Shown piece by piece: positions 27,312 to 32,056 of a stretch of DNA of 36,012 nucleotides. Source of the DNA: Candidatus Poribacteria bacterium (GTDB lineage: Bacteria > Poribacteria > WGA-4E > PCPOR2b); assembly GCA_021295755.1 (NCBI GenBank), contig JAGWBT010000036.1, positions 1 through 36,012 of the forward strand. Direction: 5' to 3'. Position numbers and translations under genes: made by a program. Below the pieces are notes generated by a model. It saw only the letters and a program-made list of their open reading frames with translations. It did not search any database and was not told the DNA's origin. The stretch's first letter is position 1. Every line of letters starts with the position of its first letter.

Positions 27312-29237
27312 TCACCACCTCATCTCTTCCAAGAAGGGATTGTTTTCATCGTAGTAATATGCAGCCTCTTCAACAGAGATTTGACTCTCTTTGGTGAGTC
27401 GCAGTGGGGAAGAAAACTGCTCGATAACCCCCTTTTGAGCCAGCCATTCGCAGACAAGTCCGACCCAAGCCTGCCGCACTCCGAAGTAGTCACTCAACTC
27501 AGTGGCGGTGCGTGTACCGCCTGCGCTCGCCAAGAAATCGAAAAGCGGCTGAAAAAGGGTGAAGGTTTGATCATTCAGATAGCGGTCAATCGTCTCAAGT
27601 GTGCGACGAACCATTTCCTCATCCTTATCTTTATGGATTAAATCTGTAAAAACCGCGTCAAAGAAATTGGGGTTATGTTCCCTCGCTTGATAAATAGCTT
27701 TCCGCTTCGGCACCTCTCCGTGCATAATGGTCTCAACCCGTGCCAACTGCTGAACCACAAACATAATGTATAAAAAACTATAGCTGAGATCTTTTTTTAT
27801 ATAGAACCACTTTTCTGCCTTTGTCAATAGCGCGAAGATACTATTTCCGGCGTTTATAAGTTGTGTTTCTTGGTCTCTTTGACCGATCTGTTTCAGGTCG
27901 CTATGCCATTTCTCGATGGCTTCATCCCTCGTAAAAAGCACTCGACTTCTGGATAGAATTGAATGCAATTCACTTCCCTGCAATCCACCTTCTAGGAGCT
28001 GCTGGTATCGCTTTCGTGGATGCATCGTCACATTGATATTCACACCATTTTCTACTAGGCTGTAGTGTTCATCGAATTTTGCGTCGTCGCGCCCAATGAG
28101 GAGGAGGTTGACGTTAGTATGTTGCCAAACATTATCTTCTGCGAGGTTACTTGTGAGAATCGCTGCGATGATGTACCGATCGTCTTTGACCTTATCCACG
28201 AAGGCCCCCAGCGCAGCCATAATCTGAGGGTGTGCGTCCGCCCCGATGCGAAGATCGGGATTCAAAGCAAATTTCAATTGTGGGGGAGGCGATTTGCTCA
28301 TTGTGACAGTTTCTTTCCGGTCATAATAGTAGGCAGCTTCTTCCATTTCGATCTGACTTTTCAACGTGATCTTCACAGGGGTAGATACCTGTTGAATGAT
28401 GCCTTTTTGCGCTAACCATTCATAGGCAGCATCAAAACGATTGTCACCGATCTTCTTTTGGAAGTAATCATTTAACTCCGTTGTAGATCGAGGACCGGCC
28501 GCTTCGGCTAAGAAATCTAGGATTGGTTGGAAGATAAATAGTTTCTCGTTAAGGTAGTCACTGATAGTATCTAGAGCGTTTTGGATGACCCCTTCATTCT
28601 TCTCACAGTTAATCAGATCTGAATAGGTAACACGGAAAAAGTCGGGATTATATTCAAGCGCGGGCTGGATGACCTCTCGCGACGGCACCTCATCGTTCAG
28701 GATTACCTCAATTCTCGCCAAGCTTTCCACCACACGCAGGATGGACAGGAAGCTATAATTGATGTCTTCGTTGACATAAAACTGCTTTTCGGCATATCTC
28801 AATGTGGGGAGCAGTCCGGTTGTAACAATGAGGAGTTGGAGCGCCCTATCTCTCCCACCGATATTATGTAGATTGGCGTTTTGATACCACGTTTTGACTG
28901 ATTCATCGCTACAGAAAAGGAGGGTACTACGGGAGAAGAAGGAGTGCTCAAATGAGCCTTGCAGCGCTGCTTCCTGCCATCGTCTTAATTGACTTCTTGG
29001 CACGACTTCCGCATGGATGTTGACATCGTTTTCTGCTAAAGTGTAACCTCTAGGATTACCTTTTCCCTCTCTTTGGACGAGTAGGAGATCGATGTCGGAT
29101 TTGTCCCAGACTTGGTCGTAGGACATACTACCGCACAGAATAGCAGCGATGATATTCCGATCTTTCTGGACCTTTGTGACGAGGGAATCCAACGCATCAC
29201 GATAGCGTTTTTCAACAGCAGCTTGCGATTCCATCAT
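27312..29237 (-). CDS. Duplicated nucleotidyltransferase-fold protein with degenerate second half
   Basis: 641 residues made of two tandem units (about 8-306 and 335-629). Each unit is a MNT-type nucleotidyltransferase domain, an alpha-helical region and a winged-helix-like segment ending EEAAYYYD. Unit 1 has an intact site: G36-S37 and D48-x-D50 (CGSMSYDQVWDKSDIDLLL), third acid E77 in VNIHAEVV. Unit 2 has lost it all: S363-N364, N375-x-N377 (TNVNLLLI), T in VNINVTMH. One active and one dead half suggests a built-in regulatory or binding domain. Relatives include aminoglycoside-type and toxin-antitoxin (MNT) transferases, but no partner HEPN gene adjoins. Start at the first of two ATGs after AGGAG. 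Confidence 0.85.
   Translation of the reverse strand: MMESQAAVEKRYRDALDSLVTKVQKDRNIIAAILCGSMSYDQVWDKSDIDLLLVQREGKGNPRGYTLAENDVNIHAEVVPRSQLRRWQEAALQGSFEHSFFSRSTLLFCSDESVKTWYQNANLHNIGGRDRALQLLIVTTGLLPTLRYAEKQFYVNEDINYSFLSILRVVESLARIEVILNDEVPSREVIQPALEYNPDFFRVTYSDLINCEKNEGVIQNALDTISDYLNEKLFIFQPILDFLAEAAGPRSTTELNDYFQKKIGDNRFDAAYEWLAQKGIIQQVSTPVKITLKSQIEMEEAAYYYDRKETVTMSKSPPPQLKFALNPDLRIGADAHPQIMAALGAFVDKVKDDRYIIAAILTSNLAEDNVWQHTNVNLLLIGRDDAKFDEHYSLVENGVNINVTMHPRKRYQQLLEGGLQGSELHSILSRSRVLFTRDEAIEKWHSDLKQIGQRDQETQLINAGNSIFALLTKAEKWFYIKKDLSYSFLYIMFVVQQLARVETIMHGEVPKRKAIYQAREHNPNFFDAVFTDLIHKDKDEEMVRRTLETIDRYLNDQTFTLFQPLFDFLASAGGTRTATELSDYFGVRQAWVGLVCEWLAQKGVIEQFSSPLRLTKESQISVEEAAYYYDENNPFLEEMRW
28241..28270 (+). 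repeat. Dispersed hairpin repeat, copy 3, inside a coding linker
   Basis: Matches the 27-nt unit with a 3-nt insertion (CCCCGAT-GCG-AAGATCGGGATTC...). It lies in frame within the nucleotidyltransferase gene and encodes linker residues about 323-332 between the two units. Confidence 0.5.
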
Positions 29238-29587
29238 TTGACATTCTCCTTTCCAGATGGCATTTCAATATAGCACATATATGTGAAGTGTTCAAGAAAA
29301 ATCTAAGGACAATCACTGAGCGTAGCGAGTGTAGCATTTCTGCGACGATGGTGTGGCATAGTTTCGACAATCTCTTTGTTAGCACGATACTCCGTTGCAA
29401 TCACAGCGTATATCAGAAACAGATACAAAGTCGCCCGGAGAAAGCGTTTTCTGCAAAACTTGGATTTTTTGACAACCTCTTTCAGTGATTCAAGATAGCT
29501 GTGGTATCGAAATTGCGCGTGGTTGGTGAACAAGTAAATTTCGTTTTGAGATTGAATCCGGTTCCACTTCAAAAGGAGGATTACCCC
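29238..29587. other. Divergent intergenic region before the WD40 gene
   Basis: About 350 nt. A possible plus-strand -35 (TTGACA, 29469-29474) is followed by a weak -10 after 19 nt. The imperfect palindrome CACTGAGCGTAGCGAGTG lies at about 29315-29332. An 89-codon minus-strand open frame (29303-29572) has no ribosome site or family features. Confidence 0.5.
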
Positions 29588-32056
29588 ATGAAAAAGGAAC
29601 TGTTTTTCAAGCTAAGCCTTTTGTTCGTTTCTGTTCTGTTTCTACAGGATAGCTTTGCCCAAGATTCTCCGCAATGGCGTTTACCCGAAAATGTCAAGGC
29701 GCGCCTCGGTAGGGGAAGCATAGTTGAGATGCGGTATTCTCCGGACGGAACTCGCCTCGCGGTGGCTAGCTCTATCGGGATTTGGTTTTATGATACAACA
29801 ACCCTTCAAGAGGTTGATCTGTTCACCGGGCATACCTCTTGGGTCACTAGCATCGCGTATAGTCCAGATGGACAGATGCTAGCGAGTGGTAGCGCTCGAG
29901 GGGATAACACCATCCGTCTATGGGATGCCATCACGGGTGAACACAAGCGAACCCTCACCGGACATAGTTGGACTGTCCATAGCATGGCATTTAGTCCAGA
30001 TGGGAAAATGCTGGTAAGTGGGAGTGGAGACCAGACCGTCCGTCTGTGGGATGTCGCCACGGGTGAAGAAAAGTGGAGTTTCAGCGATTCCAGATCTTGG
30101 GTACAGAGCGTTGCGTTTAGCCCAGATGGAGAAACGCTGGCATGTGGACATTCGATCGGTACATTGCGAGTGTGGGAGGTTACGACGGGTGAACAAAAGT
30201 GGACAGACGGGCATCCAATTGTGATTTGGAGTATCGCATTCAGCCCGGACGGCGAGATGTTGGCGAGTGTGAGTGGGGACAAGACCATCCAACTATGGGA
30301 TACCGTGACAGGTGAACGCAAACGAACCCTCACTGATCATACAGATAGGGTCCGTAGTGTTGCCTTCAGTCCGGATGGGGAGACGCTAGCAAGTGGAAGT
30401 TGGGATGGCACAGTGCGGCTGTGGAATGTTGCGACGGGTGAACAAAAGCTGAGGATCGGAGGCCTAGGTTGGGTCAAAAATGTTGTCTTCAGTCCGGATG
30501 GGGAGACACTAGCAAGTAGGAGTAATGATGAAACCATTCGTCTGTGGGATGTCACGACGGGTGAACAGAAGGGGAGGATCACCGGGTATGCATCTGAGGT
30601 CTCTAGTGTTGCCTTCAGTCCGGCTGGGGGGATACTGGCAAGTGCGGAGGAAAATGGTGTGGTGTATCTTTGGGACGGGGTGACCGGAAGGCACAAGCGG
30701 ACCCTCGCTGGGCATACGGATTGGGTCCATAGCGTCACGTTCAGTCCGGATGGGAAGACGTTGGCAAGTGGAGGTGGCGATGAAACCATCCGTCTTTGGG
30801 ATGTTGTAACGGGTGAACAGAAGGGGACAATCAGGCAGACATCTGCTGTTGGTAGTGTTGCGTTCAGTCCGGATGGACGGACGCTGGCGAGTGAGGGTAA
30901 AAATACGGTGTATCTATGGGATGTTATGGCAGGTGAACGCAAGAAAGCATTCACCGGGCACACGGGAGGGATCCAGAGTCTTGCGTTTAGTCCGGCTGGA
31001 GAGACGCTGGCGAGTGGGGATTGGAACGGTACTATCCGTCTGTGGGATGTCGCAACAGGTGAACAGAAAGAGACCCTCTTCGCCCAAGGTTCGACTATCT
31101 GGAGCCTCGTATTTAGTCCAGATGGAAACACGCTCGCAAGCGCGGGTAGCCGAGAGATTCGTCTGTGGGACACCGTGACAGGCGAACAGAAGGGAACACT
31201 AGTCGGGTATGAGGATGATATCTTGAGCCTTGCGTTCAGCCCGGATGGGCGGACACTCGCTAGTGGCGGAGGACGATGGGATTATACTCTTCGTCTGTGG
31301 GATGTCGTGACGGGTGTCTCCAAGGGGATTCTCACCGGGCATACGTGGACTGTCACTAGCCTTGCGTTCAGCCCGGACGGAGAGACACTGGCAAGCGGGA
31401 GTGGGGATGGCACGGTGCTCCTGTGGGAACTCCCGCCCCCAACGGTGTTCGGAGATGTCAACCGCGATGGTGTGGTGAACCTTCAAGATTTGATGTACGT
31501 TCACTCAAACTTTGGGAGGATAGGACAGGACGGTGCCGACCTAAACGGGGATGGCGTGGTCAACCTCCTGGATCTGGTCACGGTTGCCGGGGCGATAAGG
31601 GAGGCTGCGGCGGCTCCTTCCGCACATTCGGTGGCACTTACGTCCCTTACCGAGGCGGCGGTCCGGGGCTGGCTCACTCAAGCACAGGGGTTAGATCTCA
31701 CGGATCTAAGGTTACGAAGGGGAATTTTCTTCCTTGAGCGGCTCCTTGCTGCAGTAACGCCGAAAGAAACAGGACTGTTGCCCAACTATCCGAATCCGTT
31801 CAATCCAGAGACGTGGATACCGTATCACCTCGCCCGCGCCTCCGATGTGACACTCACAATCTACGACACAACAGGTGCGATGGTTCGCCAACTATATATG
31901 GGACATCAGCCGGCAGGATTCTATACCGCTCGGAACCGCGCGGTGTACTGGGATGGACGTAACGAAAACGGGGAACCGATCGCAAGTGGTATCTATTTTT
32001 ACCAACTCCGGGCAGGGGATTATACCGCTACAAGGCGGATGGTGCCTGTTAAATAG
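29588..32056 (+). CDS. Secreted WD40 double-propeller protein with dockerin and C-terminal sorting-type domain
   Basis: 822 residues. Signal peptide (1 to about 22, ends DSFAQ), then 14 WD40 repeats (residues about 45-617; AFSPDGETLASGS...IRLWDVATGEQK type), enough for two seven-bladed propellers. A dockerin type I module follows (about 620-675) with two calcium loops DVNRDGVVNLQDL and DLNGDGVVNLLDL. The C-terminal ~90 residues begin LPNYPNPFNPETW and end YFYQLRAGDYTATRRMVPVK, a FlgD-Ig-like/type IX-style sorting domain. Probably a surface-exposed protein-binding scaffold; a dockerin implies a cohesin partner elsewhere. Start ATG 29588 set by AAGGAGG at 9 nt. Repeats are very similar also at DNA level, producing long spurious antisense frames. 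Confidence 0.92.
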   Translation: MKKELFFKLSLLFVSVLFLQDSFAQDSPQWRLPENVKARLGRGSIVEMRYSPDGTRLAVASSIGIWFYDTTTLQEVDLFTGHTSWVTSIAYSPDGQMLASGSARGDNTIRLWDAITGEHKRTLTGHSWTVHSMAFSPDGKMLVSGSGDQTVRLWDVATGEEKWSFSDSRSWVQSVAFSPDGETLACGHSIGTLRVWEVTTGEQKWTDGHPIVIWSIAFSPDGEMLASVSGDKTIQLWDTVTGERKRTLTDHTDRVRSVAFSPDGETLASGSWDGTVRLWNVATGEQKLRIGGLGWVKNVVFSPDGETLASRSNDETIRLWDVTTGEQKGRITGYASEVSSVAFSPAGGILASAEENGVVYLWDGVTGRHKRTLAGHTDWVHSVTFSPDGKTLASGGGDETIRLWDVVTGEQKGTIRQTSAVGSVAFSPDGRTLASEGKNTVYLWDVMAGERKKAFTGHTGGIQSLAFSPAGETLASGDWNGTIRLWDVATGEQKETLFAQGSTIWSLVFSPDGNTLASAGSREIRLWDTVTGEQKGTLVGYEDDILSLAFSPDGRTLASGGGRWDYTLRLWDVVTGVSKGILTGHTWTVTSLAFSPDGETLASGSGDGTVLLWELPPPTVFGDVNRDGVVNLQDLMYVHSNFGRIGQDGADLNGDGVVNLLDLVTVAGAIREAAAAPSAHSVALTSLTEAAVRGWLTQAQGLDLTDLRLRRGIFFLERLLAAVTPKETGLLPNYPNPFNPETWIPYHLARASDVTLTIYDTTGAMVRQLYMGHQPAGFYTARNRAVYWDGRNENGEPIASGIYFYQLRAGDYTATRRMVPVK

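Follow-up and report, generated by a model that had tools for sequence, protein, structure and literature searches.

In the kanamycin nucleotidyltransferase ANT(4')-Ia (KNTase) and the related enzyme LinB, each active site lies at a subunit interface: one chain supplies the nucleotidyltransferase domain, and its partner supplies the helical domain (PMC4631478). Both are homodimers of identical chains with two sites, and both modify drugs. Here we describe P0001, a predicted protein that unlike these enzymes has one chain and one dead half. It is encoded in a 36,012-nucleotide stretch of Candidatus Poribacteria DNA (GenBank assembly GCA_021295755.1, a genome of 5.03 Mb), which spans bases 1-36012 of the 42,469-base contig JAGWBT010000036.1 and is referred to below as the window. 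A single copy of the gene was found in this genome, and five relatives in named public records belong to metagenome-assembled genomes of Candidatus Poribacteria. We put at about one in two the probability that P0001 is a fused pseudo-homodimer with one composite site, working with a dedicated paralogue of UvrA. The features of the gene, all on the minus strand, are as follows.

27312..29237, minus strand: two-unit nucleotidyltransferase-like protein P0001, 641 residues; open reading frame (ORF), translation, and orthologues in the order
28320..29237, minus strand: unit 1, residues 1-306, of active type (Polbeta match; model confidence 76; fold matches to 3c18 at Z 18.8 and ANT(4') at Z 11-12), subdivided into nucleotidyltransferase (1-112), helical bundle (113-247) and winged-helix-like end (248-306), with borders that we placed from the structure model and the alignment
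29127..29132, minus strand: G36-S37 motif of unit 1, in 61/61 unit-1 rows and 8/8 single-unit rows
29088..29096, minus strand: D48-x-D50 of unit 1, in 61/61 unit-1 rows and 8/8 single-unit rows
29013..29015, minus strand: H75 of unit 1, in 61/61 unit-1 rows and 8/8 single-unit rows; mostly R, L or N in unit 2
28743..28796, minus strand: helical segment of unit 1, residues 148-165; Y148, Q152, N156 and S165 deviate from a conserved patch and Y161 is retained
28233..28319, minus strand: linker between the units, about residues 307-335; low model confidence, length differing among relatives
27348..28232, minus strand: unit 2, about residues 336-630, built as unit 1 with the catalytic residues gone; 45% identity to unit 1, 3c18 Z 18.8
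28146..28151, minus strand: S363-N364 in place of G-S in unit 2 (unit alignment)
28107..28115, minus strand: N375-x-N377 in place of D-x-D in unit 2 (unit alignment)
27768..27821, minus strand: helical segment of unit 2, residues 473-490; K473, W477, K481, Y486 and Y490 correspond to patch positions 148, 152, 156, 161 and 165 and are retained

The two halves of P0001 align with each other at 45% identity over 296 residues (E 4e-90). An earlier sequence-only reading had proposed one active and one dead transferase unit in a single chain, and structure prediction supports the transferase fold that it assumed, with matches to 3c18 and KNTase. The AlphaFold2 model of unit 1, built from 12 aligned units, has a mean predicted local distance difference test score (pLDDT) of 76.4 and a predicted template modelling score (pTM) of 0.71; the full-length model is weaker (pLDDT 63.5, pTM 0.37). 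Protein Data Bank entry 3c18 is the best fold match of unit 1 (Foldseek E 2e-11; VIA-align Z 18.8 over 258 residues), followed by ANT(4')/kanamycin nucleotidyltransferase (Z 11-12) and LinB (Z 11). Unit 2, taken from the full-length model (residues 338-620), matches 3c18 at Z 18.8 and KNTase at Z 12-13; the dead unit has kept its fold and flanking regions, as had been supposed. KNTase and LinB share with P0001 the fold (Z 11-13), a helical domain after the transferase domain and, in unit 1 only, the G-S and D-x-[DE] motifs. Residues 232-298 of the unit 1 model match RuvB at Z 8.1 and a human Z-alpha domain at Z 7.0, in parts that we take to be winged helices; in these comparisons a Z under 8 can reflect a common arrangement. 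The winged-helix-like ends of the sequence-only reading therefore gain weak to moderate support from the model. Given these fold matches, both units are predicted to consist of a nucleotidyltransferase domain, a helical bundle and a winged-helix-like end.

A search of the Protein Data Bank with the single P0001 sequence found no match, and a search with a profile found 3c18 as the sole credible one (E 1.8e-9). This nucleotidyltransferase-like protein of Exiguobacterium sibiricum is one that we take, from the match to Pfam PF22339, to be YgxA-like. It shares the three-part build with both units of P0001, but it has one unit, and it reads D-V-L at the place of D48-x-D50: the second aspartate is missing and the protein looks catalytically degenerate, whereas unit 1 is intact. 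Among Pfam models, Polbeta (PF18765) matches unit 1 alone, at 28 bits against a cut-off of 26.9. The YgxA-like_sub_bind model (PF22339) gives 27.0 bits with the whole of P0001, equal to its cut-off, 15.5-16 bits with each unit, which is below it, and 22.7 bits with the two-unit protein of locus L045. When PF22339 was searched across 21 genomes there was no match, but the controls were blank too, so this search is uninformative. PF14540, presumably the N-terminal nucleotidyltransferase-like model of YgxA, is absent from the Pfam matches of P0001 at E up to 1, Polbeta being matched instead. Because that match is missing, we file P0001 as a relative of the YgxA-like family and not as a member.

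Catalytic residues divide sharply between the units. All 61 unit-1 rows, which like the unit-2 rows come from one Poribacteria order, and all 8 single-unit rows of the alignment carry G36, S37, D48, D50 and H75, as do 18 of 18 complete single-unit relatives; loci L031-L035, which occupy the same places as L002-L005 and L017, and three partial rows that lack the motif (from L061, L062 and L067) were removed before counting. Among 62 unit-2 rows, D48 is left in two and D50 in one, never both together, and G-S in none. The G-S and D-x-D motifs assigned to unit 1 by the sequence-only reading are therefore sound, as are the two asparagines and the lost G-S in unit 2 of P0001. The asparagines are not themselves conserved: position 48 is mostly A, N or T in unit 2, and position 50 mostly H, N or E. 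A third acid, claimed for unit 1 by the same reading with no position named, did not hold up. The strand that follows D48 and D50 (residues 72-80 of the model) has a single acid, E77, which differs between relatives, and it is His75 that stays invariant there; E69, just ahead of the strand, is conserved, yet it is also present in the dead unit 2 (62/62). H75 would sit near the place of the third carboxylate in other enzymes of the fold, and it may stand where one of KNTase/LinB type would be expected, the register against KNTase being unsure.

Two loci carry frame breaks. At L064 (G064) the transferase is split over two frames between the units, and at L148 (G397) the break lies inside a single unit whose front fragment has N for the first catalytic D. 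Either split could be a sequencing error or real decay.

The two-unit build is old. A search with P0001 matched 72 of 145 genomes, all in the phylum of the window (84 genomes, G000-G083), one of them through a remnant in G001. Relatives of the same build had been suggested as a target by the sequence-only reading; the Poribacteria order has them in families f1, f3 and f4, and none of the two-unit rows has two active units; families f2 and f5 have single-unit proteins. In a tree built from 64 unit rows, picked by hand out of 134, unit 1 and unit 2 each form one clade (support 99/94 and 98/92), and a second tree of 31 rows recovers both clades with lower support (93/92 and 94/90). The f4 protein has long branches in the unit tree. 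The simplest reading of these trees is one duplication and fusion before the split of f1, f3 and f4. Because each unit forms one clade and catalytic loss in unit 2 is uniform, the two-unit observation goes beyond chance. Over 10 pairs within the genus, the median ratio of nonsynonymous to synonymous substitution rates (dN/dS) is 0.088 in unit 1; in unit 2 it is 0.101, and at about 0.10 we judge unit 2 to be maintained under purifying selection. The pseudo-enzyme duplication proposed earlier is thus real, old and selectively maintained, as trees, conservation and dN/dS agree.

If unit 2 has no catalysis of its own, the question is what it keeps. The comparison set for both units was 18 complete single-unit relatives, drawn from two phyla after L148-L150 (G397 split over two frames, its duplicate, and a 129-residue partial sequence from G396) had been removed. 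One residue class is held across all 18 in 93 alignment columns. Unit 1 retains 13 of these that unit 2 has lost, including all five catalytic ones, and unit 2 retains eight that most of unit 1 has lost. Five of the eight (148, 152, 156, 161 and 165) fall in a stretch of 18 residues; random draws were as tightly clustered in 508 of 100,000 cases. This patch is nearly uniform in unit 2: K148, W152 and K156 are each present in 62/62 rows, Y161 in 61/61 and Y165 in 60/60 rows with a letter at that position. All 18 complete single-unit relatives hold K148, an aromatic residue at 152, K or R at 156, Y161, and W or Y at 165; the row-by-row patch counts, unlike this set of 18, include G397 twice, L148 and L150 being one contig. 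In unit 1, positions 148, 152 and 165 are altered in 61/61 rows, 156 in 59 and 161 in 53. P0001 itself reads Y, Q, N, Y, S in unit 1, with Y161 retained. The divergent f4 protein has all five residues in unit 2, and its unit 1 has lost 148, 152 and 165 and retains 156 and 161.

A profile alignment to ANT(4')-Ia, with KNTase residues numbered by matching its S39, D50 and E52, pairs family residue K151 with KNTase K149, and position 152, a W in unit 2, with KNTase W150, at a weak score (hhalign P 0.083). Because of this placement, the patch that unit 1 has mostly lost appears to sit where a KNTase subunit reaches into its partner's site. With the losses largely complementary and the composite sites of KNTase and LinB on record, the simplest reading is a single-chain pseudo-dimer in which one composite site would be formed in trans from the transferase domain of unit 1 and the helices of unit 2. 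The second pseudo-site may serve for binding or assembly.

A different account, which we hold to be somewhat unlikely, makes unit 1 a self-sufficient nucleotidyltransferase and unit 2 a ligand-sensing pseudo-enzyme that regulates it allosterically, much as the sequence-only reading had suggested for the dead half. Conservation of unit 2 in spite of its dead site suits such a role, as does good conservation of unit 1's own helical domain, and AadA, which has the same broad fold, works as a monomer (PMC4631478). What this account leaves unexplained is why unit 1 has lost most of a patch that unit 2 and 18 of 18 complete single-unit relatives keep. Moreover, 3c18 and KNTase are the nearest fold matches, and KNTase is a homodimer whose sites are shared between subunits (PMC4631478). 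Sensing or allostery by the dead half is possible, but a shared composite site agrees better with which residues each unit has lost.

The genomic neighbourhood points to a partner for this putative composite-site enzyme. When ORFs around the 70 Poribacteria loci were clustered, 48 loci proved to have a UvrA gene downstream of the transferase and in the same orientation (39/54 in f3, 6/6 in f5, 2/2 in f2, 1/1 in f4 and 0/7 in f1). From transferase stop to UvrA start the gap is below 1 kb in 47 of the 48 linked loci and about 6 kb in the other; in the table of gaps, L139 and L144 repeat L136 and L137, and the value of -82 at L138 is an alignment artefact. Of the six f5 loci, four have the two genes overlapping by 4 bp and one by 16 bp, an arrangement that, judged by its sequence, resembles translationally coupled genes. 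Four further genomes of g6 (G021, G022, G055 and G058) have UvrA about 5 kb downstream of the transferase. Clusters present in at least three families number eight: the transferase, UvrA, a WD40 protein, an oxidoreductase-like protein, a short ORF, and three that look by eye like antisense shadows. At L058:4044-8231, in the one-contig genome G047, two two-unit transferase genes lie in tandem directly upstream of UvrA.

The linked UvrA is a full-length protein of 956 residues (UvrA_inter 73.5 bits against a cut-off of 23.3; UvrA_DNA-bind 60.1 bits against 23.2). It scores 1047 bits against the structure 9gxk over residues 4-955 and 652 bits against 2vf7, which we take to be Deinococcus UvrA2, and by these sequence scores it is nearer to canonical UvrA structures than to 2vf7, a shorter chain. 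Most of the Poribacteria searched, and the second phylum described below, also carry a fused double UvrA of about 1,800-1,990 residues (for example G000:C97), whose halves form two separate clades in the seven genomes compared. Unlike it, the linked UvrA forms a clade of its own, apart, and is tied to the transferase gene.

The two genes tend to be inherited together. Across the 84 Poribacteria genomes, 67 have both, four the transferase only, three UvrA only and ten neither. Co-occurrence is significant by Fisher's exact test (p 9e-8, or 1e-5 with G014 and G074, which carry only end fragments of a similar UvrA, scored as UvrA only), with relatedness ignored in both values. In the three UvrA-only genomes (G010, G018 and G039) UvrA lies near a contig start. 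Because the 1,046 bases upstream of UvrA in G018 hold no trace of the transferase, true absence is possible there. Joint absence is seen in G006, G011, G073 and G001 among others. Joint loss is most telling in G001: this one-contig genome belongs to the genus of the window and has neither gene, although its congeners carry both, on different contigs. G001 was scored as having neither. A remnant of 37 residues of unit 2, 78% identical, lies at L099:5297-5407 in this genome and is the sole trace of the gene found by tblastn.

The pair also occurs outside the phylum. Active-unit profile A4, run against 386 genomes, matched 100; beyond the window's phylum the only strong matches were G194 and G331, of one family, and the others had E-values of 1.7e-6 at best, those listed covering mainly the transferase motif. 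In the family of G194 and G331, 11 of 14 genomes have a single-unit transferase, and two other genomes of that phylum that were examined lack it. All 11 carriers have a UvrA of the linked type next on the same strand, cut by contig ends in three. The gaps are about 80-190 bp, and about 1 kb in G397, counted to the base aligned with UvrA residue 1, the start codon being unchecked. Of the three family members without the transferase, two lack the linked-type UvrA and one has a fragment of 54 residues. The UvrA of G194 is 57-62% identical to six Poribacteria UvrAs. Since a quick UvrA tree nests the second-phylum copies inside the Poribacteria ones, transferase and UvrA appear to have been transferred between phyla as a pair; the transferase tree leaves such a transfer unresolved.

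Conserved gene order could also mean that P0001 regulates its neighbour. It would then be a DNA-binding regulator of expression of the UvrA paralogue, with winged-helix ends that bind DNA and a transferase fold that only senses nucleotide. The C-terminal part does resemble winged helices (RuvB at Z 8.1, Z-alpha at Z 7.0). We nevertheless consider such a regulator improbable: catalytic residues that never vary, either in unit 1 or in the single-unit relatives, argue for chemistry, and the genus of the window has lost the linkage while keeping both genes, though a regulator could act at a distance.

Several observations weigh against a composite site shared between the units and against a dedicated UvrA partner. 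At the level of domains, the split of complementary losses does not reach significance (Fisher p 0.085); the same test with a looser 85% threshold and eight single-unit relatives gave p 0.043. Unit 1 retains helical residues that unit 2 has lost (P144, L167 and E188), and its helical domain is the better conserved of the two (differences of 0.364 against 0.488), so its helices are not simply surplus. Of the 61 unit-1 rows, eight retain Y161, P0001 among them, and two retain K156. KNTase Tyr146 aligns with position 148, where unit 1, and not unit 2, has a tyrosine, and the hhalign score to KNTase is poor, as given above. The mutual arrangement of the units is modelled without confidence, at the full-length pTM already quoted. 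As for UvrA, the window's genus has the two genes on separate contigs (UvrA at G000:C26:3388-6252), and in the one-contig f3 genome G049 UvrA lies 3.3 Mb from the transferase. Four genomes have the transferase without the linked UvrA (G063, G065, G067 and G068, all 73-86% complete), and the co-occurrence counts are phylogenetically non-independent.

Other genes accompany the transferase in some loci, including those for WD40, enolase-like, DUF547, amidohydrolase-like and nucleotidyltransferase-HEPN proteins; among its neighbours only UvrA spans the families as widely. In the window, a large WD40-repeat protein (29501-32056, plus strand), with what look by eye like a leader-like start and a sorting-like tail, adjoins the transferase gene, and WD40 genes of its cluster lie near the transferase in 12 loci including the window. 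Of the 70 loci, 15 have, upstream of the transferase and in the same orientation, a gene combining nucleotidyltransferase and HEPN domains in one ORF, for example L051:6095-6922 (minus strand), the assignment resting on a Pfam match of the L051 copy only. A PIN-domain gene, assigned by Pfam on the L046 copy only, stands between transferase and UvrA in seven of 70 loci (L015, L021, L025, L046, L057, L064 and L067).

Such neighbours bear on whether P0001 could belong to a toxin-antitoxin or anti-phage module, as toxin or neutraliser; the sequence-only reading had likewise raised a defence role. MntA is one nucleotidyltransferase of toxin-antitoxin systems (type VII HEPN/MNT), and it belongs with P0001 to the same superfamily of minimal nucleotidyltransferases. 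P0001 is larger, however, scores 13.7 bits with the MntA model NCBIfam NF047752 against a cut-off of 60, and has a HEPN-containing gene upstream in just those 15 loci. Other nucleotidyltransferases are known in toxin-antitoxin systems, MenT being named in PMC11375011, and the PIN gene between the pair would suit such a module. A PADLOC scan of 12 units gave weak matches only (best E 0.00045), no transferase relative occurred among 25 pattern matches in viral contigs, and plasmids gave no transferase match. Each unit forms one clade across an order, and the conserved neighbour is UvrA. We regard a toxin-antitoxin or anti-phage module as very improbable, and the proposed defence role finds no backing here.

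Our preferred explanation, a fused pseudo-homodimer that works with UvrA, can be set out as a sequence of events. An ancestral enzyme of YgxA/KNTase type would have been duplicated and fused in the ancestor of the Poribacteria order, and one of its two composite sites given up after fusion. The catalytic nucleotidyltransferase domain would have survived in unit 1, and the helical patch needed to complete the site in unit 2. This single site, made of the nucleotidyltransferase domain of unit 1 and the helices of unit 2, would transfer a nucleotide from a nucleoside triphosphate (NTP). The transferase would have a dedicated UvrA paralogue as its partner, and in the ancestor the gene for this UvrA would have come next, downstream and in the same orientation. 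We infer that the composite site acts in trans, that a nucleotide is transferred to a substrate, and that the two genes form an operon whose products are physical partners. Likely targets would be a UvrA-DNA complex, UvrA/UvrB, or a damaging compound handled by UvrA; damaged DNA, UvrA/UvrB and a damaging small molecule are the candidates.

More tentatively, the pair may be a mobile two-gene system of Poribacteria and one other phylum. UvrA would locate DNA that is damaged or foreign, or a natural product that binds DNA; the transferase would then attach a nucleotide as a tag to the site, the protein or the compound. Within one order, the homodimer would have been fused, and complementary loss would have reduced it to a single composite site. 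A literature search, most subscription journals excepted, found no account of such a transferase-UvrA pair.

The association of the transferase with UvrA suggests a connection, so far unstudied, between nucleotide transfer and DNA repair, and the pair could be tested with two genes in a laboratory strain. If our explanation is true, P0001 would show how, in nature, complementary loss can leave a homodimeric enzyme as one chain with one site, and its intact single-unit relatives would allow comparison. UvrA, which is among the best-studied sensors of DNA damage, would gain an enzymatic partner from a different superfamily.

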